A stretch of 38,005 nucleotides of DNA from Candidatus Bipolaricaulota bacterium (GTDB lineage: Bacteria > Bipolaricaulota > Bipolaricaulia > Bipolaricaulales > Bipolaricaulaceae): assembly GCA_937921255.1 (NCBI GenBank), contig CAKZSO010000010.1, positions 1 through 38,005 on the forward strand. The letters run 5' to 3'. Below, piece after piece: positions 1,021 to 15,590 of the stretch (positions within the stretch are counted from its first letter, which is position 1; each line of letters starts with the position of its first letter). The notes beneath the pieces are model-generated. The model made no database searches, had not been told where the DNA came from, and worked only from the letters and a program-made list of their open reading frames with translations. Both the position numbers and the translations under genes were made by a program.

Positions 1021-2415
1021 ATGAGACGCTCAGACTGGATTCGGTTCGGAGTTGTGATGGCAGCCCTGCTGGCCTCGGTCGGCCTCCTGTACCCGTTCCT
1101 CCCGTTCCAGGAGGTCATCAAGCTCGGCCTGGATCTCCAGGGGGGCGTGCGACTCGTCCTCGAGGCCCAGGTGCTGGACCCCGAGACGGGAAAAATGATC
1201 CCCCTTCGGGATTCCCCGATGGACGCCGCCCGGCAGCAGGACGCGGTGAACCAACTCGTGACCGTGTTCTCGGAGCGCGTGGACCAGTACGGGATGGTCA
1301 ACGCCGAGATCCGGCCGATCGGGCGGGACCGGGTTGAGGTGAAGATCCCCAAGTTCCAGAACCCCGAAGAGGCGCAGAAGCTCCTCGGGAGTACCGCCCT
1401 CCTCGAGTTCCGCAAGGTGATCGACGCCGCCCCGACCTGGTCGGACCTCGAGGCACGGCGAACCCTGATCCAGGAGATCCTCCCCAACCCCGACAAGACG
1501 GAGTGGTACCTCGTCGAGGCCGAGCCCCTCCTCACCGGTGATGTGCTTGACAACGCCGTGGTCCGCACCTCAACCGATCCCCGGCAGCCAGGGTTCCTCA
1601 TCGCCCTCACCTTCAACCGGAGCGGTGCGGAGTTGTTCGTGAGCGCCTTGGCGCGGCTTCAGGTGAACGACCGGCTGGCGGTGATCCTCGACAACACCGT
1701 CTACTCCGCCCCCCAAGTGTCGGCTTCAATCAAGCAGGCGGCCCAACAGGGCTGGCGGGCCGTGCAGGACTCGACGACGATCACCGGCCGGTTCACGTTC
1801 GACGAGGCGAAGCTCCTCGCCGCCGTCCTGCGGTCGGGTGCCCTGCCCACCCAGGTCGACGTCATCGAGCAGCAGACGATTGGGCCGACCCTCGGCGCGG
1901 AGTACGTCCGGCGCGGGATGACCGCCCTCGTCGTCAGCTTCGCCCTCGTCATGGTCTACATGCTCATCTACTACCGCTGGCTGGGGCTGGCCGCGGACGC
2001 GACCCTGATCCTGACGATGCTCCTCGTGTTCGGGGCGCTGCGGGCATTCGGGGCCACCCTGACCCTTCCCGGGATCGCGGGGATCGTCCTCACGATCGGG
2101 ATGGCCGTCGACGCGAACGTGGTCATCTTCGAGCGGATCAAGGAGGAGCGGCGGACGGGGAAGGCGCCCACGGCGTGTATCACCGCCGGGTTCGCGAAGT
2201 CGCTGTCGGCGGTGCTCGACGCGAACATCACCACGCTGATCGTGGCGCTCATCCTGTTCTTGCTCGGCTCGGGCCCGGTGGAGGGGTTCGGGATCACGCT
2301 CGGGCTGGGGATCATGGCCTCCGTGTTCTCGGCCCTGGTCCTGTCGCGGCTCCTCCTCGAGGCGACGAAGTTGGGGGAGTCGATCCCGGTGCGGCCAACG
2401 CCAGACCGTACGTGA
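1021..2415 (+). CDS. secD: Protein translocase subunit SecD
   Basis: SecD, with SecF, uses the proton or sodium gradient to pull exported proteins out of SecYEG. The 464-residue protein shows an N-terminal membrane helix, the D1 motif LGLDLQGGVRLVLEAQV, a periplasmic P1 domain, then a C-terminal five-helix RND-like block with LTIGMAVDANVVIFERIKEE (motif D5, bearing the Asp used for ion coupling) and a final helix. The start ATG at 1021 follows GGGGGG nine bases after yajC. Length is within the normal range for separate SecD. No secF follows: the next gene is holA on the other strand, and secD's last 104 bases overlap the end of holA. Confidence 0.95.
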   Translation: MRRSDWIRFGVVMAALLASVGLLYPFLPFQEVIKLGLDLQGGVRLVLEAQVLDPETGKMIPLRDSPMDAARQQDAVNQLVTVFSERVDQYGMVNAEIRPIGRDRVEVKIPKFQNPEEAQKLLGSTALLEFRKVIDAAPTWSDLEARRTLIQEILPNPDKTEWYLVEAEPLLTGDVLDNAVVRTSTDPRQPGFLIALTFNRSGAELFVSALARLQVNDRLAVILDNTVYSAPQVSASIKQAAQQGWRAVQDSTTITGRFTFDEAKLLAAVLRSGALPTQVDVIEQQTIGPTLGAEYVRRGMTALVVSFALVMVYMLIYYRWLGLAADATLILTMLLVFGALRAFGATLTLPGIAGIVLTIGMAVDANVVIFERIKEERRTGKAPTACITAGFAKSLSAVLDANITTLIVALILFLLGSGPVEGFGITLGLGIMASVFSALVLSRLLLEATKLGESIPVRPTPDRT

Positions 2416-3280
2416 AGCGGTGGAGGGCGGCCTCTGCGGAGAGCTGGCCCGTTTTGATCTGAAGGTCGAGGGATTGGAGCGAGGCGAGGCTACGGATGAG
2501 CCTTGCCTCGCCCCATTCGTGGGCCTGCGCCAGCCGCTTGCGGACGAGCCACGGCGGCCCCGCGGGAACGCGCCCCGCGCCCTGGGCGGCGAGGGCCGCA
2601 ATCAACGACCTCACGTGCCCCACGAGGCTGAAGAACAGGGCGGAGGGGTTCCCCCCCGCCTCGAGGAGCGCCCGCAGCTCCGCAAGCGCCTGCGGCAGCC
2701 TCCTCGCCCCCACCGCATCGAGGTAGGCGTACGGCGTCCCGCCCGATGCGTAGAGAAGCCTCTCGAGCTGCGCGCGCGGAAGGCCGGCGCCCGTCCACAC
2801 GGAGAGCTTCTCCACCTCCTGCGCCAGGCGCAACGTGTCCCCTCCCGCCGCCGCGACGAGGTCCTCCGCGAGCGACGCAGCTTCGGGGAGGCCCGCCTCC
2901 GCGAGGAGCTCCGCCGCGAGCGCGCGCAGTGCTCGGCCCGTGGGCGTGGGAAGCTCCATCGCCTCGTCGGCCAGGCGCACCACCGGCCCCTTCAATGTCT
3001 CGCCCAAGAGGAACAGGGCAAGGTCCGACGGCAATCCGCCTGCCAACCTCCGCGCCAACCGCTCGTCCTCGGCCAGCGCGTCGGCCCGCCGGACGACGAT
3101 CGCTCGCGGTTCACCAAACAGGTCCGCGCTCCCCAGTTCTCCGAGCAGACGATCCAAGCACGGCTCATCCCCAAACAGGATGACCCGCCGGGCGGGGCCG
3201 ATCCGACGAAGGGCACGCTCCACCGCCCGCTCGACGAGAAACGGGTCCCCCCAGTAAGCCCCGAGCCGAACCGTCCCCAC
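2312..3280 (-). CDS. holA: DNA polymerase III delta subunit (clamp loader)
   Basis: This 322-residue protein matches HolA. It has an N-terminal degenerate AAA+ domain with FGDEPCLDRLLGEL near residue 37, then ALFLLGETLKGP, the helical second domain EVEKLSVWTGAG, and the collar-domain pattern FFSLVGHVRSLIA followed by LDLQIKTGQ. Delta opens the sliding clamp inside the clamp-loader complex. The start is GTG at 3280, which has no Shine-Dalgarno sequence but a TAAGGT hexamer six bases upstream, so the mRNA may be leaderless. The last ~30 residues are proline/glycine rich and lie antisense to the end of secD. The true tail could be dispensable. Confidence 0.85.
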   Translation of the reverse strand: MGTVRLGAYWGDPFLVERAVERALRRIGPARRVILFGDEPCLDRLLGELGSADLFGEPRAIVVRRADALAEDERLARRLAGGLPSDLALFLLGETLKGPVVRLADEAMELPTPTGRALRALAAELLAEAGLPEAASLAEDLVAAAGGDTLRLAQEVEKLSVWTGAGLPRAQLERLLYASGGTPYAYLDAVGARRLPQALAELRALLEAGGNPSALFFSLVGHVRSLIAALAAQGAGRVPAGPPWLVRKRLAQAHEWGEARLIRSLASLQSLDLQIKTGQLSAEAALHRFTYGLALAAPGSTPPTSSPRGGAATGPGPRTRRP

Positions 3281-3286
3281 GGCCAG

Positions 3287-3292
3287 ACCTTA
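3287..3292 (-). promoter_or_regulatory. Putative -10 element of holA (leaderless arrangement)
   Basis: On the minus strand TAAGGT lies exactly six bases before the GTG start of holA, and no purine-rich ribosome-binding site is present. A TAnnnT hexamer at this distance is the known hallmark of leaderless mRNAs in several bacterial phyla. It is the weakest hexamer of the three similar cases in this window. Confidence 0.35.
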
Positions 3293-3318
3293 CCTCGCGA
3301 GCCGAGGACGCACCAGTG

Positions 3319-3347
3319 TTGAGGTCGCAGGCCAAGGCGGCTACCAT
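3319..3347 (+). promoter_or_regulatory. Sigma70-like promoter for tRNA-Leu (and plsX)
   Basis: TTGAGG (3319-3324) and TACCAT (3342-3347) are separated by exactly 17 bases. The tRNA 5' end is nine bases after the -10, leaving almost no leader, as is common for tRNA promoters. The plsX start lies only nine bases past the tRNA, so it is probably on the same transcript. Confidence 0.5.
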
Positions 3348-3355
3348 CCCGGCGC

Positions 3356-3439
3356 GCCGAGGTGGCGGAATTGGCAGACGCGCTGTCTTGAGGGGGCAGT
3401 GGGCTTCGGCCTGTGTGGGTTCAAATCCCACCCTCGGCA
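3356..3439 (+). tRNA. tRNA-Leu (anticodon GAG)
   Basis: A full class-II cloverleaf can be folded. The acceptor stem is GCCGAGG (3356-3362) with CCTCGGC (3432-3438), the discriminator is A3439, and there is a D-arm. The anticodon stem CTGTC/GGCAG encloses the loop TTGAGGG, giving anticodon GAG. There is a long variable arm and a T-arm containing GTTCAAATC. The long variable arm, A73 and GAG anticodon indicate leucine (CUC/CUU codons). The 3' CCA is not encoded (ACCC follows). The gene sits 9 bases upstream of plsX. Confidence 0.93.
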
Positions 3440-3448
3440 CCCGACCTA

Positions 3449-4459
3449 GTGAAGCCGCGCATTGTCGTGGATGTGATGGGGGCAGATCGACCACCCGCCG
3501 AGCTTGCAGCGGGGGCCCTCCGCGCCGCGGCCGATCTCCCGATCCGGCTCATCCTCGCCGGTCCACGGTCGGATCTCCCCGCCCACCTCCCCAACGAGGT
3601 GGAGGTCCTGGACTGTCCGCGATCCGCGGGCGAGGAGGGGACCTCGTCGATCGGCCGCGGGCTGGATGCCATCGCCCGTGGCCAGGCCGACGCCCTCCTC
3701 TCGCCCGGCAGCACGGGAACGGTGGTGCGGGCAGCGATCCTCCGCCTGGGACGACTTCCGGGCGTGCTCCGGCCCGGCCTGTGCGCGTCAGTGCCCACGC
3801 AGCGGGGGGAGGTGCTCCTCATCGACACCGGCGCCATCGCCGACCCCAAGCCCGCCCACCTCGCCCAGTTCGCAGACCTGGGCATCGCCTACGCCCGGGA
3901 GGTCCTCGGGATCCCCTCGCCGGCGGTCGGGCTCCTCAACATCGGAACGGAGCGCGGGAAGGGAGACCGGCTCACCCGGGAAGCGTACGCCCTCCTCTCC
4001 CGGCGGAACGACTTTGCCGGTAGCGTCGAACCCCATGCGATCATGACCGCGCGCCCGGTGGACGTCGTGGTCGCGGGCGGGTTCTCGGGAAACCTGGTTC
4101 TCAAGGCAGTGGAGGGGGGGGCAGAGGCCGTCCTGGAGGCGCTGAAAGGCGCGCTTGGAGGGTCGCTGCGCTCCCGCGTTGGGGGGTGGTTCGCTCGCCC
4201 CGCGCTGCGGTCTGTGGCACGCCAACTCCGCTACGAGGACCACAACGCGGCCCCGCTCCTCGGGGTTCACGGGCTGGTGGCCGTCGCCCACGGTCGCTCG
4301 GACGCCCGGGCAATCGCGGGCGGGCTTCGGCGCACGTACTCCGCCTGTCAGGCGCGAATCGTGGAGAAGATCGCCGCCCAGTTCGGTCCCGCGCCCGCCG
4401 AAGCTGGACTTGCCAACCCCCGTACCCCCAGGGTACCCTCCGCTGCCCCGCCCGAGTAG
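3449..4459 (+). CDS. plsX: Phosphate acyltransferase PlsX
   Basis: PlsX turns acyl-ACP plus phosphate into acyl-phosphate, the donor for PlsY (also in this window) in phospholipid synthesis. The 336-residue protein begins VKPRIVVDVMGADRPP, the N-terminal signature of the family, and contains LLSPGSTGTVVRAA, GLLNIGTERGKGD and VVVAGGFSGNLVLKAVEGGAEA in the expected order. The start is taken as GTG at 3449. The frame extends upstream but only through the tRNA-Leu gene. No clear ribosome-binding site is seen. The frame runs intact through a G8 tract at 4114-4121, a useful control for the broken helicase gene at the other end of the window. acpP follows after 118 bases. Confidence 0.92.
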   Translation: MKPRIVVDVMGADRPPAELAAGALRAAADLPIRLILAGPRSDLPAHLPNEVEVLDCPRSAGEEGTSSIGRGLDAIARGQADALLSPGSTGTVVRAAILRLGRLPGVLRPGLCASVPTQRGEVLLIDTGAIADPKPAHLAQFADLGIAYAREVLGIPSPAVGLLNIGTERGKGDRLTREAYALLSRRNDFAGSVEPHAIMTARPVDVVVAGGFSGNLVLKAVEGGAEAVLEALKGALGGSLRSRVGGWFARPALRSVARQLRYEDHNAAPLLGVHGLVAVAHGRSDARAIAGGLRRTYSACQARIVEKIAAQFGPAPAEAGLANPRTPRVPSAAPPE

Positions 4460-4471
4460 GCGCGGCTCTTC

Positions 4472-4500
4472 TTGGCGCGCGGGGGATTGCACCCTGTAGT
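4472..4500 (+). promoter_or_regulatory. Possible promoter for acpP
   Basis: In the plsX-acpP gap TTGGCG (4472-4477) and TGTAGT (4495-4500) are 17 bases apart. The -10 is poor (4 of 6 to consensus). A separate acpP promoter is common because ACP is needed in large amounts. Confidence 0.35.
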
Positions 4501-4577
4501 GCCCCCCATGACCGGCGCACGTGAGTCGGGGACGGGATCCTCGACGCGGGTGGGACCACAGAGGAGGTGTGGGACCT

Positions 4578-4841
4578 ATGAGCGAGATTGCCGATCGAGT
4601 GAGGGAAATCATCGCTGAGCAGCTGATGGTGGACCTCGACGAGATCACCGACGAGGCGTCGTTTGTGAACGATCTCGGTGCGGACTCCCTGGATACGGTT
4701 GAACTGATCATGGAGTTCGAGGACGAGTTCGGGATCGAGATCCCGGACGAGCAGGCTGAGGACATCGCCACCGTGGGCGAGGCGATCGCCTACATCGAGA
4801 GCCGCGTCCACGAGAAGGAAGAGGCCGGTGGCGAGGCGTAG
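4578..4841 (+). CDS. acpP: Acyl carrier protein
   Basis: This 87-residue acidic protein carries the growing acyl chain in fatty-acid synthesis on a 4'-phosphopantetheine arm. The attachment motif is [19 protein letters not shown], with the modified serine at residue 37. Helix II and III residues typical of AcpP follow ([18 protein letters not shown]). The C-terminal tail is short and glutamate-rich. The ATG at 4578 is chosen over an upstream in-frame ATG because GAGGAGGTG at 4561-4569 is a strong ribosome-binding site and [12 protein letters not shown] is the usual start. It lies between plsX and asnS and supplies the acyl-ACP that PlsX uses. Confidence 0.96.
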
Positions 4842-4865
4842 CGATCGCCATCCCGGAGGAACCCG

Positions 4866-6161
4866 ATGACGCCCGTGGAGGTTACAGAGCTCGGCTCTCA
4901 CGTCGGAAGCGAGGTCCTCATCCAGGGCTGGCTCTACAACAAGCGGTCCTCGGGCAAAGTGAGGTTCGTCCTCGTGCGGGACGGGACGGGCCTCGTTCAG
5001 GGGGTGGTGACCCCGGACGCCGACCCCACCGCGTTCGAGCTCGCGGACTCCCTGCCGCAGGAGTCGACGCTCCGGCTGACGGGAACCGTGCGCACCGAGC
5101 CACGGGCCCCGGGAGGATACGAGATCTCCGTCACCCGCATCGAGCCCCTTCACGTCCCGAAGGCGCCGTTCCCGATTGGCCTCAAAGAACACGGGACGGG
5201 GTTCCTGATGGACCACCGCCACCTGTGGATTCGGATGCGTCGGCAAACCCCGGTTTTACGCATCCGCGACGGCGTCCTGTGGGCGATCCGCTCGTTCTTC
5301 CGGGAGCGGGGGTTCGTCGCCACCGAGTCGCCGGTCCTCGTCGGAACGTCCGTCGAGGGGACAACGACCCTGTTCCCCCTGGATTACTTCGGGACACCGG
5401 CCTACCTCTCCCAGTCGGGCCAACTCTACCTCGAGGCCACGTGCGCCGCGCTCGGCAAGGTGTACTGGATCGGCCCGGTCTTCCGGGCCGAGAAATCGAA
5501 GACCCGCCGGCACCTGATCGAGTTCTGGATGGCCGAGGGGGAGCAGGCGTTCCTCGACCACGTGGGCAACCTCGCTCTCCAGGAGGACCTCGTGCGGTAC
5601 GTAGTCGAGGCGGTGGCTGCCGAGCACAGCCGCGATCTCGCGGAGCTGGAGCGCGACCCCGCGGTCCTCCTCCGCGAAGTGGGGGGACCGTTCCCTCGAA
5701 TCACCTACCACGAGGCGGTGGCCCTGGTCCAGAAGGCCGGCGTGAGCATGGCGGTGGGGGACGACTTCGGTGCTCCAGCCGAGGACGCCCTGTCCCAGCA
5801 CTTTGGCCGTCCGGTGTTCGTGGAGCGGTTCCCCGCGGTGATCAAACCGTTCTACATGAAACGCGATCCCGAGCGCCCCGACCTCGCCCTGTGCGCCGAC
5901 CTCATCGCTCCGGAGGGATACGGGGAGATCATCGGCGGGTCCCAGCGCGTGGACACGGAGGAGGAGCTCCTCCGCCAGCTCCGCGAGGCGGGTCTGCCCA
6001 TCGAGCCCTACGACTGGTACCTCGATCTCCGGCGGTGGGGCGCGGTGCCCCACGCGGGGTTCGGCCTCGGTGTCGAGCGAACGGTCCAGTGGCTGGCCGG
6101 GATTGCCCACATCCGCGAGGCGATTCCGTTTCCACGAACCCTCGACCGCCTCTACCCTTGA
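4866..6161 (+). CDS. asnS: Asparaginyl-tRNA synthetase
   Basis: This 431-residue class-II synthetase charges tRNA-Asn. An N-terminal OB-fold anticodon-binding domain (QGWLYNKRSSGKVRFVLVRDG, about residues 20-40) is followed by the catalytic core. Motif 2 reads GPVFRAEKSKTRRHLIEFWM and motif 3 reads GFGLGVERTVQWL near the C-terminus. The KSKTRRHL.EFWM stretch and the ending IREAIPFPRTLDRLYP separate AsnRS from the related AspRS. The length is typical of the compact bacterial/archaeal form. The ATG at 4866 has CGGAGGAA upstream, 24 bases after acpP. Having asnS means the cell need not rely only on transamidation for Asn-tRNA. Confidence 0.93.
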   Translation: MTPVEVTELGSHVGSEVLIQGWLYNKRSSGKVRFVLVRDGTGLVQGVVTPDADPTAFELADSLPQESTLRLTGTVRTEPRAPGGYEISVTRIEPLHVPKAPFPIGLKEHGTGFLMDHRHLWIRMRRQTPVLRIRDGVLWAIRSFFRERGFVATESPVLVGTSVEGTTTLFPLDYFGTPAYLSQSGQLYLEATCAALGKVYWIGPVFRAEKSKTRRHLIEFWMAEGEQAFLDHVGNLALQEDLVRYVVEAVAAEHSRDLAELERDPAVLLREVGGPFPRITYHEAVALVQKAGVSMAVGDDFGAPAEDALSQHFGRPVFVERFPAVIKPFYMKRDPERPDLALCADLIAPEGYGEIIGGSQRVDTEEELLRQLREAGLPIEPYDWYLDLRRWGAVPHAGFGLGVERTVQWLAGIAHIREAIPFPRTLDRLYP

Positions 6162-6184
6162 GGGGAGAGGCCGCTCTAGGTACA

Positions 6185-6237
6185 CTCGTTACCCTGCCCC
6201 CAGCGGGGAGTATTCCGGCGAGGGGAGCCATAACGAG
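6185..6237. repeat. Inverted-repeat element downstream of asnS, similar to one at 24431
   Basis: CTCGTTA (6185-6191) and TAACGAG (6231-6237) are exact inverse complements flanking a GC-rich core (CCCTGCCCC, CAGC, GGGGAG). The core resembles the sequence at 24431-24466 in the purB-ileS gap: GTTA(T)CCCTGCCCC, a four-base loop, GGGG, then a CGGCG block. Two partial matches suggest a small dispersed hairpin repeat but do not prove it. Confidence 0.35.
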
Positions 6238-6270
6238 CTGCTCCGTGGCCTACGGTTTGCACAGTAACGC

Positions 6271-6299
6271 GTGGGCGGCTGCTCTAGACAGCCGCCCAC
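6271..6299. terminator. Perfect 11-bp hairpin between asnS and hup
   Basis: GTGGGCGGCTG (6271-6281), loop CTCTAGA, CAGCCGCCCAC (6289-6299) is a perfect stem. It lies between the convergent asnS and hup genes and could end transcription from either side, although no T-tract follows directly on either strand. Confidence 0.6.
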
Positions 6300-6306
6300 C
6301 CATCCC

Positions 6307-6331
6307 CTGACGCAGAGCGTCAGCCCTTTTT
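6307..6331 (+). terminator. Intrinsic terminator of the asnS transcript
   Basis: CTGACGC (6307-6313), loop AGA, GCGTCAG (6317-6323), then CCC and TTTTT (6327-6331) is a textbook rho-independent terminator for the plus strand. Its 3' arm and T-tract are also the last codons and stop of hup on the other strand. Confidence 0.7.
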
Positions 6332-6643
6332 CACCGTAAGCTGGCCGCGCTGATCGATCGCCTTCAGCCGCTTGGCCACGAGGGTCTTGAGGTTCTTGCC
6401 GGGTTTGAACGCCGGAACCACCTTCGCAGGCACCATGATCCGCCGTTGGGTCTGCGGGTTGATGCGCTGAGATTGCTTCCGGGTCCGCACCTCAAACTTC
6501 CCGAACCCCGTGAGCAGGACCTCCTCGTTCGCCGCAATGCTCTCGGTGATGATGTCAATCGTGGCATCGAGGGACTTACGAGCATCCTTTTTCGTAAGCC
6601 CAGTCCGCTGAGCAATCCGGTCTACCAGTTCTCCCTTGTTCAT
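6320..6643 (-). CDS. hup: HU/IHF-family DNA-binding protein
   Basis: This 107-residue protein compacts and bends DNA as a dimer. It shows the family order: MNKGELVDRIAQRTGLTKKD helices, LTGFGKFEVRTRKQSQRINP, the DNA-contacting beta-arm with the INPQT proline region, and VPAFKPGKNLK. A lysine-rich tail of about 17 residues extends beyond the usual ~90-residue core. The ATG at 6643 has GGAGGGGGT upstream. It is transcribed alone from a near-consensus promoter (TTGACA-17-TATACT), which fits an abundant protein. HU and IHF subunits cannot be separated with certainty by eye. HU is more likely for a single gene without partner. Confidence 0.94.
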   Translation of the reverse strand: MNKGELVDRIAQRTGLTKKDARKSLDATIDIITESIAANEEVLLTGFGKFEVRTRKQSQRINPQTQRRIMVPAKVVPAFKPGKNLKTLVAKRLKAIDQRGQLTVKKG

Positions 6644-6675
6644 TCTAACACCCCCTCCCTGGTCAAAGATGCGCT

Positions 6676-6704
6676 AGTATAGAGCGCTTTCTCCTCACTG
6701 TCAA
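6676..6704 (-). promoter_or_regulatory. Strong sigma70 promoter of hup
   Basis: On the minus strand TTGACA (6704-6699) is a perfect -35 and TATACT (6681-6676) a near-perfect -10, with exactly 17 bases between. It is the best promoter in the window and faces away from the rpsF promoter about 40 bases further on. Confidence 0.85.
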
Positions 6705-6745
6705 GTGCGAACGTACTTCCCAACCCTCTTTCCGCGGAGAAACGG

Positions 6746-6774
6746 TTGACGAACGAGGACAGGGTGGGTAGAGT
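6746..6774 (+). promoter_or_regulatory. Sigma70 promoter of the rpsF-ssb-rpsR operon
   Basis: TTGACG (6746-6751) and TAGAGT (6769-6774) are separated by 17 bases. The rpsF start is 40 bases downstream with its own ribosome-binding site, giving a leader of about 33 bases. Confidence 0.7.
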
Positions 6775-6813
6775 TTGCGTAGACAGTCCATCTCTTCTGA
6801 AGGAGGAATCCCG

Positions 6814-7113
6814 GTGGCCGGTGAGGCGCGCGACTACGAGATGGTGTACATCCTTCGCCCCGACCTGGACGAGGAGGGGCGGCGGGCGAAGATCGCCAAG
6901 GTTCAGCAGATCATCGAGTTGGAGGCGGGGGCCGTTCAGACGACAGACGAGTGGGGAACGCGTTTGCTCGCCTACGAAATCAACCACTTCCGCGAGGGGT
7001 ACTACGTGCTGGTCACGTTCACCCTTCCGCCCGACCGCGTGCGGAAGGTCGAGGAGCGGTTGGCGATGGACGACGCTCTGCTCCGCTATCAGACGGTGCG
7101 GCTAGGCAACTAG
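6814..7113 (+). CDS. rpsF: 30S ribosomal protein S6
   Basis: This 99-residue protein has the S6 pattern: YEMVYILRPDLDEEGRR at the N-terminus, TRLLAYEINHFREGYYVLVTF in the middle (usually RRLAY.I.....G.Y....F), and a C-terminal helix ending LRYQTVRLG. S6 binds S18 on the platform of the small subunit, and rpsR lies two genes downstream. The GTG at 6814 is chosen because AAGGAGGA lies 6-13 bases upstream. The longer frame from 6775 would begin inside the leader, next to the -10 box. It heads the standard rpsF-ssb-rpsR cluster with a one-base gap to ssb. Confidence 0.94.
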   Translation: MAGEARDYEMVYILRPDLDEEGRRAKIAKVQQIIELEAGAVQTTDEWGTRLLAYEINHFREGYYVLVTFTLPPDRVRKVEERLAMDDALLRYQTVRLGN

Positions 7114-7114
7114 G

Positions 7115-7543
7115 ATGAGCGACCTCAACCGGGTGGTCCTCACCGGGCGCCTGACCGCAGACCCCGACCTCAAGTACACTCAGGGCGGGCGGGCCATGCT
7201 GCGGTTCGACGTCGCGGTGAACCGGAGGTGGGTCAACCCGGAAAGCGGCCAGGTAGAGGAAGAGGTGACGTTCCTCCCGGTTGTGGTGTGGGGGAAACAG
7301 GCCGAGACCTGCGCCGCCTACCTCCGGAAGGGGCGACAGGTAGCCGTGGATGGGCGAATCCGGGTCCGGTCGTTCACCACCCAAAACGGGGATCGCCGCC
7401 GGACGACTGAGATCGCCGCCCAGGCGGTACACTTCCTCGGCGGCCGGCCGACCGCTGGGGAGGGCCCCGCCGAACCACAGCCGACGGAGGAAGGAAGCGA
7501 CGTGCACCCCGAGGGTGCACCGGAGGAGGAGGTTCCGTTTTGA
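7115..7543 (+). CDS. ssb: Single-stranded DNA-binding protein
   Basis: This 142-residue SSB has the OB-fold in residues 1-110: LNRVVLTGRLTADPDLKYT, then FLPVVVWGKQAETCAAYLRKG and GDRRRTTEIAAQAVHFLGG. A disordered acidic tail rich in Pro/Glu/Gly ends in EEEVPF. The terminal acidic-hydrophobic tip, here VPF rather than the usual DDIPF, is the docking peptide for repair and replication partners. It sits between rpsF and rpsR as in most bacteria, and its TGA overlaps the rpsR start (TGATG). Confidence 0.95.
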   Translation: MSDLNRVVLTGRLTADPDLKYTQGGRAMLRFDVAVNRRWVNPESGQVEEEVTFLPVVVWGKQAETCAAYLRKGRQVAVDGRIRVRSFTTQNGDRRRTTEIAAQAVHFLGGRPTAGEGPAEPQPTEEGSDVHPEGAPEEEVPF

Positions 7544-7758
7544 TGATGCAACGCCAGCGCCGCGTGTGTCGGGTATGTGACCAAGGGCTGAAGCTTCGCT
7601 ACACCGACCCGGAGACGCTTCGCCAGTTCGTAAACCGCCGCGGGAAAATCCTGTCCCGAAGGGTGTCGCGCCTCTGCGCCAAGCACCAGAACTGGATGGC
7701 AACCGAGGTCGATCGCGCCCGCAAACTCGCGCTGCTCCCCTACGAGGACAAGCCGTAA
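7543..7758 (+). CDS. rpsR: 30S ribosomal protein S18 (zinc-binding form)
   Basis: This 71-residue protein is S18: FVNRRGKILSRRVSRLCAKHQ is the family signature, and S18 partners S6. Two pairs of metal ligands are kept (CRVCD near the N-terminus, CAKH near residue 45), so this is the Cys-containing zinc-binding form often lost in paralogues. Start choice is between ATG 7543 and ATG 7546. Both follow GGAGGAGG, and 7543 overlaps the ssb stop by one base. It is the last ribosomal gene of the cluster. Confidence 0.93.
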   Translation: MMQRQRRVCRVCDQGLKLRYTDPETLRQFVNRRGKILSRRVSRLCAKHQNWMATEVDRARKLALLPYEDKP

Positions 7759-7769
7759 CCGCGCCGCCC

Positions 7770-8870
7770 ATGGCCCGCACGGTCGCCTTCCTGTTCGATG
7801 GCGGAGGCGCGGACCTGGTCGGGAAGGCGCGTACAGCGGCCGCCAAAACCCTCGCCCGACGCTTACGGGACCACCCCAAGGTCGGGGAGACCGTCGTGGC
7901 CACTCCCCACCCCGAGCGGTGGGACGGCGAACTGGTCACAGTGGAGGCCGACCCCCCGGGGCCGTGGAGGTTCGGGGCACGCCTCACCGAGCTCGCGCGC
8001 GCGTACGCGGCCGATCGCCTCCTGTACTTCTCCGCCGGCAGCGGATTCCTCCTTCCGGATGACGAGCTCGACCTCCTCGTCACCGCCCATCTTCCCACCC
8101 CGTCGTACGCGGTGCTCAACAACTTCTACTCGACCGACTTCGGTCTCCTCGTCCCTCCCCCGGCGCTCGCTGACCTGACGCGGGACAACCCGATCGGGGC
8201 CCGGTTGTGGGGCGCTGGCTACGCCTGCTACGAGCTCCCCCGGTCGGCGGGGACCCAGTTCGACATCGACACCCCCGGGGAGCTCCAGGTCCTCGCCCTG
8301 CACCCACGCCTCTCACCGGAACTGCGGGAGGCCTTGGTTGCGGTTCCCACCGACCGCGCGCAGCAAGTGCTCGACGTCCTCATCGACCCAGAGAAGGAGC
8401 TCGTCCTCCTCGGGCGGGTCGGGGGACACCTCGCCCGCTGGGTAGAGAGCGAGGCTGCGTGCCGGGTTCGCATCGTGTCCGAAGAACGGGGAATGGAGTC
8501 GAGCGGACGGGCGGAGCGCGGGGCGGTGCGGTCCCTCGTCGGCGCCCTCGCCCACGGGCGGACGATCGCGGAGCTGGTGGAACTCCTAACCCAATTCGGC
8601 GATGCTGTGGTGTGGGACACGCGCGTGCTCATGGCGCACCTCGGGTTCTGGCCCGAGCCGTCGGAACGGTTCGCGTCCGACCTCCTCGACCTGGCGAGCA
8701 CCTCGCACCCCACCTTGCGGGAACTTGTCGCCGCATGTGCCGACGCGTCGATCCCGTTCTTGTTGGGCGGCCACGCCCTCGTATCGGGAGGGATGTACCT
8801 CGCCGTGGAGCTGGCGTGGGAGGACGCCGACCGGGCGGTCCGGTTCCGGCCCCTCCCCCTGCCACACTAG
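7770..8870 (+). CDS. Uncharacterised protein, possibly nucleotidyltransferase-like
   Basis: I do not recognise this 366-residue protein with confidence. Its first half looks like a MobA/CofC-type nucleotidyltransferase fold: MARTVAFLFDGGG at the start, a central strand with DRLLYFSAGSGFLLPDDEL, LTRDNPIGARLWGAG, and the closing QFDIDTPGELQVL, which resembles the D-x-D-TP-x-DL metal-binding end of that fold. The glycine-rich NTP loop expected at the N-terminus is not clear, so activity is uncertain. The second half (FGDAVVWDTRVLMAHLG, FLLGGHALVSGGMYLAVEL) matches nothing I know. It starts 12 bases after rpsR and ends 9 bases before the SHMT/GcvT fusion, so it may belong to the same transcript as both. 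Confidence 0.75.
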   Translation: MARTVAFLFDGGGADLVGKARTAAAKTLARRLRDHPKVGETVVATPHPERWDGELVTVEADPPGPWRFGARLTELARAYAADRLLYFSAGSGFLLPDDELDLLVTAHLPTPSYAVLNNFYSTDFGLLVPPPALADLTRDNPIGARLWGAGYACYELPRSAGTQFDIDTPGELQVLALHPRLSPELREALVAVPTDRAQQVLDVLIDPEKELVLLGRVGGHLARWVESEAACRVRIVSEERGMESSGRAERGAVRSLVGALAHGRTIAELVELLTQFGDAVVWDTRVLMAHLGFWPEPSERFASDLLDLASTSHPTLRELVAACADASIPFLLGGHALVSGGMYLAVELAWEDADRAVRFRPLPLPH

Positions 8871-8879
8871 GAGCCGACA

Positions 8880-11800
8880 ATGCGTGAACCCATCTGGACA
8901 ACGAGACTTGCCGAGATCGACCCCGTGCTCGAGGGGCTCGTGCGGGCAGAGGACGAGCGGCAGCGAGACAAGATTATCCTCATCCCGTCCGAGTCGTTGA
9001 CCCCTCTCGCCGTGCGCGAGGCCGTGGGCTCCGCCCTCACCTCGATCTACGCCGAGGGGTATCCCCGCGAGGAGATGCTCCGCCTCCCGGAGGATCAGCT
9101 GGCCGATACCGCAGAACAGCTTGCCTACTTCCGCCGATACAGCGATCGCCGGTTCTACAAGGGCGTCGAGATCGCCGACCTCGTGGAGGCCCTCGCCTGT
9201 CGGCGGGCCGCGGAGTGCTTCGCCACACCCGAGGTCGGGCCCGACAGTATCTACGTGAACGTCCAGGCCCTGTCGGGTGCCGCGGCGAACATGGCGATCT
9301 ACGAGGCCCTCCTCCAGCCCGGGGACACCCTGATGGCGATGGACCTCTCCCAGGGTGGGCACCTCTCCCACGGCTCCCCGTTCCACCAGTCCGGCCGGCG
9401 GTACCGGATGGTGCGCTACGGGGTGGACCCGAAAACCGAGCGCCTCGACTACGACCAGATTGCCGATCTTGCCCACAAGCACCGCCCCCGGCTCATCATC
9501 GCCGGGTACACGTCCTACCCGTGGGCCCCGGACTGGAAGGTCTGGCGGGAGATCGCGTCCAGGTGCGGGGCGTACCTCATGGCCGACATCGCCCACACCG
9601 CGGGGCTCGCCGTCGCCGGCGCCTACCCCAACCCCGTGGGGTACGCAGACGTAGTGGTGTTCACCACCCACAAAACCCTCCTTGGGCCGCGGGGGGCGAT
9701 CCTTCTCTCCTCGGACCCCGAGATCGCGAGCCGGATCGACGCCGCCGTGTTCCCTGGAGCCCAAGGTGGGCCCCACGTGAACAAGTGGGCCGGGATGGCT
9801 GCCGCGTTCGCCCTCGCGAGGACGCCCGCGTTCCGTGAGCTTCAGCACCGGATCGTGGCCAACGCCCGGGTCCTCGCTGCGGCGTTGGAGAGGCGGGAAC
9901 TCCGCCTGGCCTACGGGGGGACGGACACCCACCTCCTCGTCCTCGACCTCCGCGCGATCCGTACCCCCAGCGGAGGCGAACTGATGGGAGAGATCGCAGC
10001 GCGGATCCTCGACCTTGTGGGCCTGGTCGCGAACAAGAACACGATCCCTGGCGACCTGTCCGCGGCCGACGCGCGGGGAATCCGCTACGGGACACCGTGG
10101 GCCACCCAGCGGGGGATGGGAGAGGCGGAGATGGAGGAAATCGCCGAGGTCACCCGCCTCGTCCTAACCGCAATCCACCCGTTCTCCTACCACGGGGTGA
10201 CCGGAGCCCTCCCCCGCGGGAAGCTCCCCCTGTCCGTTCTCACGGAAGCCCAGGACCGGGTGCGGGCCCTGGCGGGCCGGTTCGGCGGATCGCGGCCGGC
10301 TCCCGCCCAGCAGCCCCCGACAAGTGGGGTCACCGCGCTGCGGGTTCGGGGAGGCCGGGCGGCCCACCTCCTCCACGAGGCGGGCACGGCCTCCGTCCTC
10401 TCCCTCGACCCCGGCCAGGCCAGGCGAACCCTGTTCCTCGACGAGAGGGGAACGCCCCTCACCGAGGCGGTCGTGGGACGGCTCCCCGACGACCGATGGG
10501 GACGAGCGGAGTTCACCCTGGTCGTCCCGAGCGACCGCGGGCCCGCTCTCGCCCGTTGGCTGACCGGACTCGCCGACGGCTACGTTCTGTTCGACCCCGA
10601 CGACCTTCAGCGCAAGGTGCAGGGGCCGGCGGTGGTGGAACCGTACGCAGGCGCTGCCTCGTTCCGCCTCGACGACGGGACAACCGTTGCCATCGGAGAA
10701 ACGATCCTCCCAGCGGCGGCGGACCTCTTCCCGACACCCCCGCAGTCCCGCGGGGCGACGGAACGATCGCTCAAACCGGTTGCGCCGCGGAAGCCGTACT
10801 TCATCGGCTGCCAACGCGTCCAACTCCCGGCGGACAAAAGGCCGTACACGCCCCAGCTCCCTGAGCTGGGCATGGCTCACACCCCCCTCGCCGATTGGCA
10901 CCGCGCAGCGGGGGCGCGGACGGCCCCGTTCGCCGGGTTCGAGATGCCTCTGTGGTACACCTCGGCCCTCGCCGAGCACCGCGTGGTGCGGGAGAAGGCG
11001 GGCCTGTTCGACCTCGGCCACATGGGGGTGTTTTCCGTGGAGGGACGCTACGCGGAGAGCTTCCTCAACCTGGTGACCACGAACTACGCGGGTTGGCTCC
11101 GCCCCAGACAGTCTCAGTACGCGTTCCTCCTCGCGCCGGACGGGACCGTGCGGGACGACTTGATGACGTACCGGGTATCCCACGATCGGTTCCTCCTCGT
11201 GGTCAACGCCGCGAACGCCCACGCGGATTGGGATTGGCTGTCGGCGGTCAACTCCGGGGAGGTCGCCCTCGACCCCGATCGGCCGTGGATCGAACCGGAC
11301 GGGCCGGCGGCGCTGCGCGATCTCCGGGGGGAGGGCGCGGAGTCCCTCGTGAACATCGCCCTGCAGGGCCCCCGCTCGCGGACGGTCCTCCTGGGTCTCC
11401 TCTCCCGCGCGGATCGGCACCGGCTGACCTCGCTCCGCCGGACGGAGTTCTGCAACCTCACCCCGAACAAGATCCCCACCCTCTGCGCCCGGACCGGGTA
11501 CACGGGGGAGCCTCTCGGGTACGAAATCCTCGTCCCGGCCGGCCGCGCTGGAGAGCTGTGGGAAGCACTCCTCACCGCGGGCCGCCCCCACGGAGTCCAG
11601 CCGATCGGGCTTGCCGCCCGAGACTCGCTCCGAACCGAGGCCGGCCTTCCCTTGTACGGCCATGAGCTTGCGGGGCCCCAAGGGATCCTGCCCCACGAGG
11701 CGGGGTTCGCCCCCTACGTCAAGCTCCACAAACCGTTCTTCGTGGGGCGGGAAGCGTACAAGCGAGCGCTTGGTTCTTGGAGCCGGGAGGTCGTCCGGTT

Positions 11801-12095
11801 CTCGATTGCTCCCGGGGCTCGGCCGGTACGGGCCGGAGCGCCGGTCCTGGACAAGGGCGGGCAGGTGTTGGGGTGGGTGACAAGTTGCGTCGCGCTCGAC
11901 AGCGGTCAGGTGGGGATGGCCCTCGTCACCGCCCGAGGTCTGTCGGAGGGGACTCCCCTCGGGTTCGTCCTTGGCGCAGAACGGGGCCTCCCAGCGAGGA
12001 TCGAACCGGGGTCGCGGTTCCCCCTCGTGGTATGGGGAGAGGTGCTCTCCCGGTTCCTGAAGCGGGACGCCCTCCCCATGGCGGGGGACGACTAG
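8880..12095 (+). CDS. Serine hydroxymethyltransferase fused to GcvT aminomethyltransferase
   Basis: This single intact 1071-residue frame encodes two folate-linked enzymes. Residues ~1-450 are SHMT (GlyA), a PLP enzyme making glycine and methylene-THF from serine: YVNVQALSGAAANMAIYEAL, IAHTAGLAVAGAYPNP, and FTTHKTLLGPRGA with the PLP lysine K265. Residues ~481-640 look like a shortened, degenerate GcvT/YgfZ-type domain (LRVRGGRAAHLLHEA, RTLFLDERGTPL, LADGYVLFDPDDLQRK). From ~665 (TPLADWHRAAGARTAPFAGF) to the end is a complete GcvT T-protein with GLFDLGHMG, the folate-site acidic pair in VRDDLMTYR (D759/D760) and RDSLRTEAGLPLYGHEL. No frameshift or stop interrupts the joins, so the fusion looks real. 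It could channel one-carbon units between glycine cleavage and serine. GcvP, GcvH and Lpd are not in this window. The stop TAG shares CTAG with the convergent protease gene. Confidence 0.93.
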   Translation: MREPIWTTRLAEIDPVLEGLVRAEDERQRDKIILIPSESLTPLAVREAVGSALTSIYAEGYPREEMLRLPEDQLADTAEQLAYFRRYSDRRFYKGVEIADLVEALACRRAAECFATPEVGPDSIYVNVQALSGAAANMAIYEALLQPGDTLMAMDLSQGGHLSHGSPFHQSGRRYRMVRYGVDPKTERLDYDQIADLAHKHRPRLIIAGYTSYPWAPDWKVWREIASRCGAYLMADIAHTAGLAVAGAYPNPVGYADVVVFTTHKTLLGPRGAILLSSDPEIASRIDAAVFPGAQGGPHVNKWAGMAAAFALARTPAFRELQHRIVANARVLAAALERRELRLAYGGTDTHLLVLDLRAIRTPSGGELMGEIAARILDLVGLVANKNTIPGDLSAADARGIRYGTPWATQRGMGEAEMEEIAEVTRLVLTAIHPFSYHGVTGALPRGKLPLSVLTEAQDRVRALAGRFGGSRPAPAQQPPTSGVTALRVRGGRAAHLLHEAGTASVLSLDPGQARRTLFLDERGTPLTEAVVGRLPDDRWGRAEFTLVVPSDRGPALARWLTGLADGYVLFDPDDLQRKVQGPAVVEPYAGAASFRLDDGTTVAIGETILPAAADLFPTPPQSRGATERSLKPVAPRKPYFIGCQRVQLPADKRPYTPQLPELGMAHTPLADWHRAAGARTAPFAGFEMPLWYTSALAEHRVVREKAGLFDLGHMGVFSVEGRYAESFLNLVTTNYAGWLRPRQSQYAFLLAPDGTVRDDLMTYRVSHDRFLLVVNAANAHADWDWLSAVNSGEVALDPDRPWIEPDGPAALRDLRGEGAESLVNIALQGPRSRTVLLGLLSRADRHRLTSLRRTEFCNLTPNKIPTLCARTGYTGEPLGYEILVPAGRAGELWEALLTAGRPHGVQPIGLAARDSLRTEAGLPLYGHELAGPQGILPHEAGFAPYVKLHKPFFVGREAYKRALGSWSREVVRFSIAPGARPVRAGAPVLDKGGQVLGWVTSCVALDSGQVGMALVTARGLSEGTPLGFVLGAERGLPARIEPGSRFPLVVWGEVLSRFLKRDALPMAGDD

Positions 12096-14515
12096 GCCCC
12101 CGAGCGCGGGTCCTCCCCCTTCTCCTCCTCAGACCGGAGGTAGGAGCGGATCTCCTCCAACCGGTCGGCGACCTTCCGGAACAGGGTCCCCTCCGGGTAG
12201 GCCCCGGCCGCATCGGCCCTCCCCGCTGGAACCCCAAACAGGACCTCCACCCCTTCCTCAACCGTCTCGCAGCTCCAGAGGTGGAACCTCCCCGCAGCCA
12301 CCGCCTGGACCACGTCCTCGGGGAGCATGAGGTCGTCGACGTTCGCGGCGGGGAGGATCACCCCCTGGCTCCCGTCCAGCCCGAGCTCCCGGCACACCAG
12401 GAAGTGACCCTCGACCTTCTCGTTGATCCCGCCGATCGCTTGGAGACGGCCCTTCTGGTCCACCGCCCCCGTCACCGCCACCCCCTGGCGGGCGGGGATC
12501 CCGGACAGGGCGGAGAGGAGGGCGTAGAGCTCCGCCGCCGACGCCGAGTCCCCCTCGACTCCTGAGTAGGACTGCTCGAGGGCGAGGCTTGCCCCGAGGG
12601 AGAGGGGTCTCCGCGCCCCGAACTGAGAGGCGAGGTAGGCCTTGAGGATCATCACCCCCTTCGTGTGGAGCTTGCCCCCGAGCTCGGCCTCGCGCTCGAT
12701 GTCCACGACCCCGCTTTTGGCCGTGAACACGTTCGCCGTGATCCGGGTGGGTTTCCCAAACGCGAAGTCCCCGAGGTCAAGCACCGCCAGCCCGTTCACC
12801 TGGCCCACGGACTCCCCGTGGACGTGGACAACGAGCTTTCCCCGGGCGATCCACTCCCGCACCCGCTCCGCGAGGAGGGAGTGCCGGTGACGCCCCTTGG
12901 CGATCGCCTGCCAGACGTGCTCCCCCTCCACGGCCGTCGCCGCCCCCGCCCGCGCCCAGAAGCTTGCCTCGGCCACGAGGGAGGCCAGGGCCCCGAACCG
13001 GCTCGTGAGCTTCCTCTGGCTCCCGGCAAGCTCCGCCGCGTGTTCGACGAGCCGGGCCACACCTGACGGGGTGAACGGAAGCACCGCCGGGTTCTCGTCC
13101 CGACACGTGCGGACAAACCGCGCCAGGGCCTGGACGGACTCCTCGGTCCACGGCATCTCCGTGTCGAAGTCGGCTCGGATCGCGAAGAACTTCCGGAAGT
13201 CCTCGTCGTAGTGGTGGAGGAGGTGGTAGAGGTAGGGAGAACCGACGAGGAGGATCTTCACCGCGAGGGGGAGCGGTTCGGGCCGGAGCCCCTCCGTGGA
13301 CGCAAACCCGAGCATCTGGGCCGGGTCCTCGATTCGAATCTCGCCAGCCTTGAGCGCGATCTTGAGCGCCTCCCAGGACAGAGGAAACCGAAGGAGGTTC
13401 GCGGCGGTGAGGACGAGGTACCCCCCGTTGGCCCGGTGCAGGGCGCCCCCGCGGATCTGGGTGAAGTCCGTGGTCACCGCGCCGAACTGAACACGGCGCT
13501 CGATCGTACCAAACAGGTTTGTGTACGTGGCGTTCCCCTCCACGACCACTGGCGCACCGGCGCTCTCGGAGCGGTCCACGACCACGTTCACCCGGTACCG
13601 GAGGAACCGGTCCCCCCCCTCCGGAAGGGGGATCGGGAGGACGGGAACCGCTTTTTTGTTCGTCGCCTGGAGTTGCTCGACGTTCTCCAGGATGTCGGCC
13701 TTCACCTCAGAGAGGAAGGTCTGGACCCGCTCCAATCCGCTGTACTTCTCCCGGAGCTGGGCGAACCGCGGCTCGACGAGGAACTCCACGACCTGTTTCG
13801 TCAGGAGGTGCTGGGCCTCCTGCCACGTCTCATCGAGCCTCGCCAAGCGCCCGAACGCATCGCGGATCAGACCTTGGAGCTCCTCCTGCCGGCGGAGGAT
13901 CTCTCCCCGCTCGCCCTCGGAGAGCAACCCGTACTCCTCCTGGGAGTACGGGTTCCCATCCCCCTTGAGGGGGATCGTGTTGATCCCCAGGGGCGTCCGC
14001 TGGATCGCGAACCCGAGCTCTCCCGCCCGCTTCTCCAGTCTCTGAAACTCCTCGTCCCGCTCGCGGGAGAACCGATCGCGCTCCTTCTTGGCGCGGGCCT
14101 TGAACTCGTCGGATTCGAGAACCCGGGGGAGCTCATGGGACAGGAACTCAATGCACCGTTCCATATCCAGCCTGAGCTCGTGGCCCCGTCCCGCCGGGAG
14201 GAGGAGGTACCGCGGGACGTGGGGAACCCGAAAGTTGTGGACGTAGCAGATGTCCGGAGGAACGGGCTTCTCCCGGGCAATCCGTTCCAGCAGACGGGAC
14301 ACGGCGGAGGTCTTCCCCAGCCCGGGGTCCCCGGAGACGTAGATGTTGTACCGGTGCTGGGGGTCGTCGAGCGAGAGGCCAAGCCACAGGGCCTCCATCG
14401 CCCGGGCCTGGGCCACGATATCCGTGAGGGGGTCCAGGTCATCGGTGGTGGCGAAGGAGAACGTCCGGGGATCGCACACCCGGCGGAGTTCGTGAGGGGA
14501 CAGCTCGCGGGTCAT
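12092..14515 (-). CDS. Lon-family (LonB/COG1067-type) AAA+ protease
   Basis: This 807-residue ATP-dependent protease is of the Lon-related type lacking the classical LAN domain. The N-terminal AAA+ module has Walker A GDPGLGKTS (K68). A long charged coiled-coil-like insertion (about residues 130-290) follows, then the arginine-finger half with RGGALHRANGGYLVLTAANLL. The C-terminal S16 protease domain has the catalytic serine in EGDSASAAELYALL (S657) and the lysine in GGINEKVEGHFLVCRELG (K700). The 43-residue Ser-Lys spacing is that of Lon. The ATG at 14515 is chosen because a longer frame would cross the divergent gene's promoter and start. It probably degrades misfolded or regulatory proteins in the cytoplasm. 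Confidence 0.92.
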   Translation of the reverse strand: MTRELSPHELRRVCDPRTFSFATTDDLDPLTDIVAQARAMEALWLGLSLDDPQHRYNIYVSGDPGLGKTSAVSRLLERIAREKPVPPDICYVHNFRVPHVPRYLLLPAGRGHELRLDMERCIEFLSHELPRVLESDEFKARAKKERDRFSRERDEEFQRLEKRAGELGFAIQRTPLGINTIPLKGDGNPYSQEEYGLLSEGERGEILRRQEELQGLIRDAFGRLARLDETWQEAQHLLTKQVVEFLVEPRFAQLREKYSGLERVQTFLSEVKADILENVEQLQATNKKAVPVLPIPLPEGGDRFLRYRVNVVVDRSESAGAPVVVEGNATYTNLFGTIERRVQFGAVTTDFTQIRGGALHRANGGYLVLTAANLLRFPLSWEALKIALKAGEIRIEDPAQMLGFASTEGLRPEPLPLAVKILLVGSPYLYHLLHHYDEDFRKFFAIRADFDTEMPWTEESVQALARFVRTCRDENPAVLPFTPSGVARLVEHAAELAGSQRKLTSRFGALASLVAEASFWARAGAATAVEGEHVWQAIAKGRHRHSLLAERVREWIARGKLVVHVHGESVGQVNGLAVLDLGDFAFGKPTRITANVFTAKSGVVDIEREAELGGKLHTKGVMILKAYLASQFGARRPLSLGASLALEQSYSGVEGDSASAAELYALLSALSGIPARQGVAVTGAVDQKGRLQAIGGINEKVEGHFLVCRELGLDGSQGVILPAANVDDLMLPEDVVQAVAAGRFHLWSCETVEEGVEVLFGVPAGRADAAGAYPEGTLFRKVADRLEEIRSYLRSEEEKGEDPRSGA

Positions 14516-14523
14516 GGGTTTGC

Positions 14524-14530
14524 TATCATA
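14524..14530. promoter_or_regulatory. Symmetric bidirectional -10 for the protease and PLD genes
   Basis: The 22-base divergent gap contains TATCATA. Read on the plus strand it gives TATCAT (14524-14529), eight bases before the PLD ATG. Read on the minus strand it gives TATGAT (14530-14525), nine bases before the protease ATG. One palindromic-like -10 could therefore fire both ways and give nearly leaderless mRNAs. Neither start has a Shine-Dalgarno sequence, and no -35 is evident. Confidence 0.5.
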
Positions 14531-14537
14531 ACCGGCG

Positions 14538-15590
14538 ATGAAGCGCGTGGCCATTCTGGTCTCTGCATTCGCCTGGGGGGTTATCGCTGTGCCCCTCGTC
14601 CCGCTCCCCACGACCCCCGAGGCTCCCCACTACTCCCGCTACGTCCTAAAGCTCATCCACTCCGCCCAGGCGGAGGTGTTGGTCGCCCTGTCGGACGTCC
14701 GGCTCTACACCGGAAACGGTGCGACAGCGGAGCTCGTGCACGCCCTCGCCGCCTCTGCGGAACGGGGGCTCCAGGTGAAGGTTCTTGCAGAGACCCGCGA
14801 GACCGGTCCGGGCCCCGACCAACGGTCAGCCCTCGCCTACCTCGAGGAGCGCGGGGTGGCCGTGCGGTGGGACAGTCCCGAGGTGACCCTCCACGCGAAG
14901 TTTCTCGTCCTCGACCGGCGGTGGGTGGTGGTCGGTTCGACCCACTGGACGATGTCCGCCCTCACTCGGAGCGTTCAGCTCGACCTCGCGATCGAGTCAG
15001 AAGAGCTCGGAAATGCGTTCGGGAGGTTCTTCGACCTCTTGTGGGAGGGGAAGCTCCAAGCGATCCCGACGCTCCCTCCCCAGCCCTGGCCTTGCCCAGC
15101 CCTCGTCCCGCTCCTCGACCTTCCCCAGGGCGGGCTTCACGCCCGGCTGGTCCCAGACATCCTCCGCGCAGCAACGGAGTCCGTCCGAGCCGTGATCTAT
15201 CGGTTCGCGTACTACCCCGCGTACGCCGACAGCCCCTCGAACCGGATCGTGGACGAGCTGTGCCACGCGGCAGCGCGCGGGATCGAGGTGCGGGTCCTCC
15301 TCGAGAGCGGCGAGGGCTTCGCCGACCTCTCCCGCGACAACCGCACCGTCGCCGCGTACCTCACGGCGTGCGGGGTCGCGGTCCGGTTCGACGACCCCGG
15401 GACCACCCTCCACGCCAAGGGGCTGATCGTAGACCGCCGCGACGTGTTGATCACGTCGGCCAACTGGTCGTATTCATCCCTGGCCCGCAACGTAGAGGCG
15501 GGGGTGGCCGTCCTCGGGGTCCCCGAGCTCGCGGAACCTCTGGCCGCGTGGTTCGACGCCCTGTGGAGCCGCGGCCGGCCCCTCCGCTAG
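14538..15590 (+). CDS. Exported phospholipase D-family protein (two HKD motifs)
   Basis: This 350-residue protein has a hydrophobic N-terminus (MKRVAILVSAFAWGVIAVPL) that looks like a signal peptide or anchor. Two PLD half-domains follow, each with an intact HxK(x)4D catalytic motif: LHAKFLVLD (H119, K121, D126) followed by VVGSTHW, and LHAKGLIVD (H292, K294, D299) followed by TSANWS. Two HKD motifs form one active site via a phosphohistidine intermediate. The superfamily includes phospholipases, cardiolipin synthases and nucleases. The lack of extra membrane helices argues against cardiolipin synthase, and export fits a secreted nuclease or phosphodiesterase, but the substrate cannot be told. 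It is divergent from the protease over 22 bases and shares its stop bases (CTAG) with the convergent PKD gene. Confidence 0.88.
   Translation: MKRVAILVSAFAWGVIAVPLVPLPTTPEAPHYSRYVLKLIHSAQAEVLVALSDVRLYTGNGATAELVHALAASAERGLQVKVLAETRETGPGPDQRSALAYLEERGVAVRWDSPEVTLHAKFLVLDRRWVVVGSTHWTMSALTRSVQLDLAIESEELGNAFGRFFDLLWEGKLQAIPTLPPQPWPCPALVPLLDLPQGGLHARLVPDILRAATESVRAVIYRFAYYPAYADSPSNRIVDELCHAAARGIEVRVLLESGEGFADLSRDNRTVAAYLTACGVAVRFDDPGTTLHAKGLIVDRRDVLITSANWSYSSLARNVEAGVAVLGVPELAEPLAAWFDALWSRGRPLR

Follow-up and report, generated by a model that had tools for sequence, protein, structure and literature searches.

A serine hydroxymethyltransferase-GcvT fusion with a retained GcvT-derived middle unit in Candidatus Bipolaricaulota and other bacteria

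We studied a window of 38,005 nucleotides, the whole stretch of DNA analysed here, from a MAG of Candidatus Bipolaricaulota (Acetothermia) that totals 1.29 Mb, is split over 66 contigs and has a completeness of 86%. One of its open frames joins a serine hydroxymethyltransferase (SHMT) to the glycine cleavage T-protein GcvT through a third, shortened GcvT-like unit. The locus raises the question of whether this joint is genuine, where the middle unit came from, and what it may do between two enzymes that share a folate intermediate.

Architecture of the fusion frame

The frame at 8880..12095 of the positive strand begins with ATG and encodes 1071 aa without interruption; both Pfam domains were matched, in agreement with the fusion claimed in the preliminary description. 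Its layout comprises SHMT (residues 1-466), the shortened GcvT unit (~485-643) and a complete GcvT (664-1071). The features of the frame and of the gene preceding it are the following:

7770..8870, positive strand: gene for a 366-aa protein, family unassigned, 9 bp upstream of the fusion frame and conserved in that place
8880..10277, positive strand: SHMT domain, residues 1-466; Pfam SHMT E 3.8e-114; 43% identity to 1kkj, TM 0.95 by target length
9069..9146, positive strand: insertion in SHMT, residues 64-89, including R85-R86; present in 27/27 fusion SHMTs versus 0/22 standalone SHMTs
10332..10655, positive strand: core of the middle unit, residues 485-592; Pfam GCV_T E 2.8e-7; AlphaFold/Foldseek match to T-proteins
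10791..10808, positive strand: K-P-Y-F-I-G element of the middle unit, residues 638-643; K638 in 41/41 and F641 in 40/41
10869..12092, positive strand: complete GcvT (T-protein) domain, residues 664-1071, with D760; Pfam GCV_T E 2.6e-78; alignment with 1woo

AlphaFold modelled the full chain with a pLDDT of 88 and a pTM of 0.84. No solved SHMT-GcvT fusion was seen in the PDB, where the full-length model matched SHMTs only, among the matches listed.

The SHMT domain scored 381.8 with Pfam SHMT (PF00464; cut-off 27, E 3.8e-114) and 407.6 with the family model NF000586 (curated cut-off 335), and residues Y57, E59, Y93, H161, D236, H239, K265 and R402 were noted in it. K265, previously proposed as the PLP lysine, does align with the PLP lysine in TTHKTL and, together with E59, Y93, H239 and R402 (equivalents of the TTHKT lysine and of the E57/Y65/H203/R363 set), was invariant in 41 homologues. 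The unusual insertion suspected around residues 60-100 proved to be real: it spans residues 64-89 (~26 aa), has no counterpart in standard SHMTs, and contains the pair R85-R86, invariant in 41/41 fusions. Because it is flanked by E59 and Y93, which align with catalytic positions of known SHMTs, the insertion should be located at the mouth of the active site.

At the other end of the protein, Pfam GCV_T (PF01571) matched residues 670-943 (263.2 versus 25.6, E 2.6e-78), and both the folate-binding and the C-terminal barrel domains are complete within 664-1071, aligning with 1woo over residues 1-340. The catalytic aspartate D760 corresponds to D96 of Thermotoga maritima (1woo) and was invariant in 41/41, so that the complete GcvT described earlier at ~665-1071 has its full set of domains and an intact catalytic residue. 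The score of 212.9 bits obtained with TIGR00528 falls below the equivalog cut-off of 235.85, so the fused GcvT belongs to a divergent subfamily and is not a confirmed equivalog. All the catalytic positions checked in SHMT and GcvT were invariant in 41 diverse fusions.

Distribution, origin and genomic context of the fusion

The nearest relatives are Candidatus Bipolaricaulota/Acetothermia MAGs, and 56 of 60 relatives matched. Within the genus and family of the window, relatives generally had the full-length fusion, contigs ending inside the gene aside; separate SHMT and GcvT genes prevailed in families f3, f6, f7 and f8 of the same class. Close relatives carry the fusion, contrary to the refuting condition of the preliminary description that all of them would have the two enzymes as separate genes. 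Two single-contig genomes (G004 and G009) had the fusion as their only SHMT or GcvT match. Beyond this phylum, the fusion was present in ~47 of 251 sampled Chloroflexota genomes (a tabulated, approximate count of frames above 1000 aa matching both enzymes) and in MAGs of Myxococcota, Bdellovibrionota and Planctomycetota. It is not peculiar to the genome of the window.

In an IQ-TREE analysis, a 100/100 branch split 27 fusion SHMTs from 22 standalone SHMTs, members of the same class being included among the latter, and this single clade indicates that the fusion arose once. Fused and standalone GcvTs were also separated (91/75 and 100/99) in a GcvT tree that cannot root the middle units against standalone GcvTs and in which long branches were flagged. 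The arrangement is old, common to several bacterial phyla and under selection. Two database labels looked wrong and resemble binning errors: a fusion titled 'Neomarinimicrobiota' (L017) grouped with Bipolaricaulota in the SHMT tree, and another titled 'Thermotoga' (L003) was 97% identical to an Acetothermia fusion.

The genes gcvH, gcvPA and gcvPB lie together on another contig (C13) of the window's genome (G000), with no gcvT beside them. The fusion probably supplies both the SHMT and the T-protein functions, because it is the sole SHMT/GcvT match in G004 and G009, while gcvH and gcvP are present and, in G000, have no gcvT next to them. A link with a reductive glycine lifestyle, suggested earlier, found no support: formate-THF ligase is encoded in the window's genome and was equally frequent in relatives with fused and with separate genes, so it does not discriminate between them, and for described Acetothermia the prediction was a breakdown of glycine and serine that yields formate (PMC6092417). 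In that degradative direction methylene-THF is made at both active sites and not passed on; its hand-over is sensible mainly in the direction from glycine to serine.

The gene for the 366-aa protein was located directly upstream in essentially all the Bipolaricaulota fusion loci whose flank was covered, and in the Chloroflexota locus L060. Pfam gave no match for the protein, in which the motifs NNFYSTDF, DIDTP and GGHxLVSGG are strongly conserved and whose N-terminal half, by eye, recalls a MobA/CofC-like nucleotidyltransferase. It was discarded as an exclusive partner of the fusion, since many Chloroflexota without the fusion have the gene and it adjoins a standalone SHMT in two genomes (G284 and G292); it is a candidate SHMT-linked protein. 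On the other side, a LonB/LonC-like AAA protease gene (12092-14611, negative strand) is convergent with the fusion and overlaps its stop codon by 4 bases.

Origin and state of the middle unit

The elements LDERG and DGYVLFD reported for the middle unit were confirmed at residues 520-524 and 566-572, respectively. A poorly conserved stretch (593-636) divides the unit into a ~108-aa core (485-592) and the motif K638-G643. A Pfam scan of the whole protein reported no separate best stretch for residues 440-660; when residues 466-664 were scanned alone, GCV_T was matched with an E of 2.8e-7 at profile positions 48-127 of 255. The same family was also matched by each of the 41 homologous middle regions (best E 3.7e-31), and a profile of these regions found solved T-proteins in the PDB, with Bacillus subtilis GcvT as the best (6e-11). 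AlphaFold modelled the middle unit alone with a pLDDT of 84.8, mostly above 90 in the core, and in Foldseek the best matches of this model were T-proteins, IBA57 and related folate proteins (E 4e-6). Structure prediction, proposed beforehand as a check, therefore gave a GcvT subdomain fold. The core signature is D566-G567-Y568, F571-D572, D575, K579 and G582-P583, part of a pattern, W-L..L.DGY..FD..D...K..GP, strongly conserved across middle units. Alignment via long middle units identified K-P-Y-F-I-G (638-643) as the counterpart of KPFFVG (951-956) in the complete GcvT.

The site of the T-protein catalytic aspartate is occupied by Glu in 23/41 middle units, including that of the window, and by Asp in 5/41. 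Neither a complete folate-binding domain (only profile positions 48-127 of 255 are represented) nor the catalytic Asp was found in the frame's middle unit, which probably has no T-protein activity because this position is mostly Glu. This agrees with the earlier opinion that the unit is too short to be active, the folate-binding second half being missing and the aspartate replaced.

The stretch preceding the QGP element measured 45-51 residues in middle units and fused GcvTs versus 28-30 in 14/14 standalone GcvTs. This shared insertion of ~19 residues points to the middle unit being a duplicate from the fusion's own GcvT lineage. Of the earlier assignment as GcvT/YgfZ-like, the GcvT part was borne out by the Pfam match, the fold and the insertion; derivation from YgfZ is disfavoured by the insertion in common with the fused GcvT, which points to internal duplication.

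Longer middle units were present in Myxococcota, Bdellovibrionota, Planctomycetota and one Chloroflexota fusion (L143), the gap between SHMT and GcvT reaching up to 365 residues. The unit of L143 matches GCV_T almost from end to end (E 3.9e-48, positions 2-237 of 255); it stops at K-P-Y-F-I-G, lacks the C-terminal barrel and perhaps still binds folate. The units of Bipolaricaulota and of most Chloroflexota have lost the N-terminal part together with ~100 residues from the centre and are reduced to the ~108-residue core plus the motif K-P-[YF]-F-[IV]-G. Two side observations concern particular loci. L143 (G093:C35; frame 2132-5887, residues 491-843) retains a DD pair and RNGYT. The fusion of L060 is in two overlapping frames (5599-7581 and 7529-9202), probably because a frameshift or a sequencing mistake interrupts the middle unit.

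A match to the middle unit was found between both enzymes in 91/91 fusion ORFs, a set that includes some of the same genes from two sources. Nei-Gojobori dN/dS values in six close pairs were 0.16-0.28 for the middle core, 0.05-0.17 for SHMT and 0.11-0.24 for GcvT, and they rose to 0.96 in some pairs in the stretch after the core, the second half of the unit. Never lost and with such ratios, the core is under purifying selection and is not junk. When it was proposed as a relic of duplication, the origin by duplication was right, as the shared insertion suggests, and 'relic' was too weak a term for a unit retained in this manner. The middle unit evolves faster than both flanking enzymes; this, and its loose second half, would also be compatible with partial decay.

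Possible role and comparison with known systems

The analysis established the architecture, the common origin, the intact catalytic residues, and a middle unit that arose by duplication and is retained under selection. We consider it reasonably probable that the protein has both enzyme activities and that its pseudo-GcvT unit has been retained as a spacer or for docking. The C-terminal GcvT would take the aminomethyl group from lipoyl-GcvH, yielding ammonia and methylene-THF, and the N-terminal SHMT would interconvert methylene-THF plus glycine with serine plus THF. The middle unit, a second copy from the same GcvT lineage, would have lost catalysis and most of the folate-binding domain. Its remaining role would be structural, holding GcvT in a set place against the SHMT dimer as a spacer or docking module, and the insertion next to the SHMT active site may offer a surface for contact. 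Both activities, the spacer or docking role, the insertion contact and any folate hand-over are what we infer.

A different role would be that of a middle unit that still binds folate, paired by the SHMT dimer into an MnmE-like site and acting as a relay or store of methylene-THF between GcvT and SHMT, i.e., in channelling. The N-terminal domain of MnmE is dimeric, with 5-formyl-THF in the dimer interface (PMC2749940), and this folate-binding domain works as a dimer; a fold search with the middle unit also recovered MnmE, though weakly (9hip, E 0.02), and the conserved W-L..L.DGY signature would fit such a site. We regard this relay as unlikely, since our frame lacks the second, folate-binding half of the GcvT domain, most members no longer have the catalytic Asp, and MnmE matches poorly in comparison with T-proteins; the fuller proposal, an internally duplicated, core-only pseudo-GcvT relaying folate within the molecule together with the insertion at the SHMT active-site mouth, seems to us similarly improbable.

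The fusion could instead merely ensure equal amounts and co-localisation of the two enzymes, the middle unit being a slowly decaying relic that serves as an inert linker. The repeated shrinkage of the unit (the SHMT-GcvT gap goes from 365 to 172 residues), the loss of catalytic residues and the barely conserved stretch 593-636 are consistent with this; it is made quite unlikely by the absence of loss in all 91 ORFs (0/91), by near-invariant residues, and by a core with dN/dS of 0.16-0.28 that folds confidently in AlphaFold. The middle unit could also dock GcvH or P-protein and so bring the glycine cleavage complex together at the fusion. T-protein naturally contacts GcvH, the middle unit copies part of T-protein, and separate gcvH, gcvPA and gcvPB genes are in the genome; we consider this docking quite unlikely as well. 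As for an assembly or binning artefact joining two genes, conceivable in MAG data distributed in 66 contigs, its probability is negligible: the same frame recurs in dozens of independent genomes, including the single-contig G004 and G009, and this explanation was rejected.

Folate channelling between SHMT and the glycine cleavage system has been argued mostly from the kinetics of separate enzymes. Here SHMT and T-protein are covalently joined in nature through a conserved pseudo-enzyme spacer, whose deletion or replacement would put channelling directly to the test. The graded series from the near-complete GcvT of L143 to the ~110-residue core documents the change of an enzyme domain into a part without catalysis, and engineered reductive glycine pathways could use the fusion as a catalyst that is already joined. 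The component families are not new, and the fusion can readily be seen in public genomes; we found no description of the fusion, the pseudo-GcvT unit or the SHMT insertion in the open-access literature, subscription papers being outside the scope of the search.

The fusion SHMT shares its fold, PLP lysine and catalytic residues with standard SHMT (GlyA; PF00464), with 43% identity to the Bacillus stearothermophilus enzyme in the structure alignment. It differs in the 26-residue insertion after YAEGYP and in the C-terminal extension into the fusion, and fusion SHMTs form a clade apart from every standalone SHMT sampled. Similarly, the fused GcvT has the full domain set and catalytic Asp of GcvT (PF01571, TIGR00528) and aligns with 1woo and 1yx2, whereas the standalone GcvTs sampled have neither the SHMT partner nor the ~19-residue insertion before QGP. 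The middle unit has the N-terminal GcvT subdomain in common with the non-catalytic, GcvT-like YgfZ/IBA57 proteins and, like them, probably lacks T activity, but it is much shorter and seems to derive from the fusion's GcvT lineage instead. The N-terminal THF-binding domain of MnmE is likewise a short folate-binding module in a larger protein; its likeness to the middle unit is a weak fold match with no sequence match seen, and folate binding by the latter is hypothetical. Dimethylglycine oxidase, sarcosine oxidase alpha and TMAO demethylase, all recovered in our GcvT search, also combine a GcvT folate domain in one protein with an enzyme producing one-carbon units; in these the partner is an oxidase or demethylase, whereas here it is SHMT, accompanied by two GcvT-type units.
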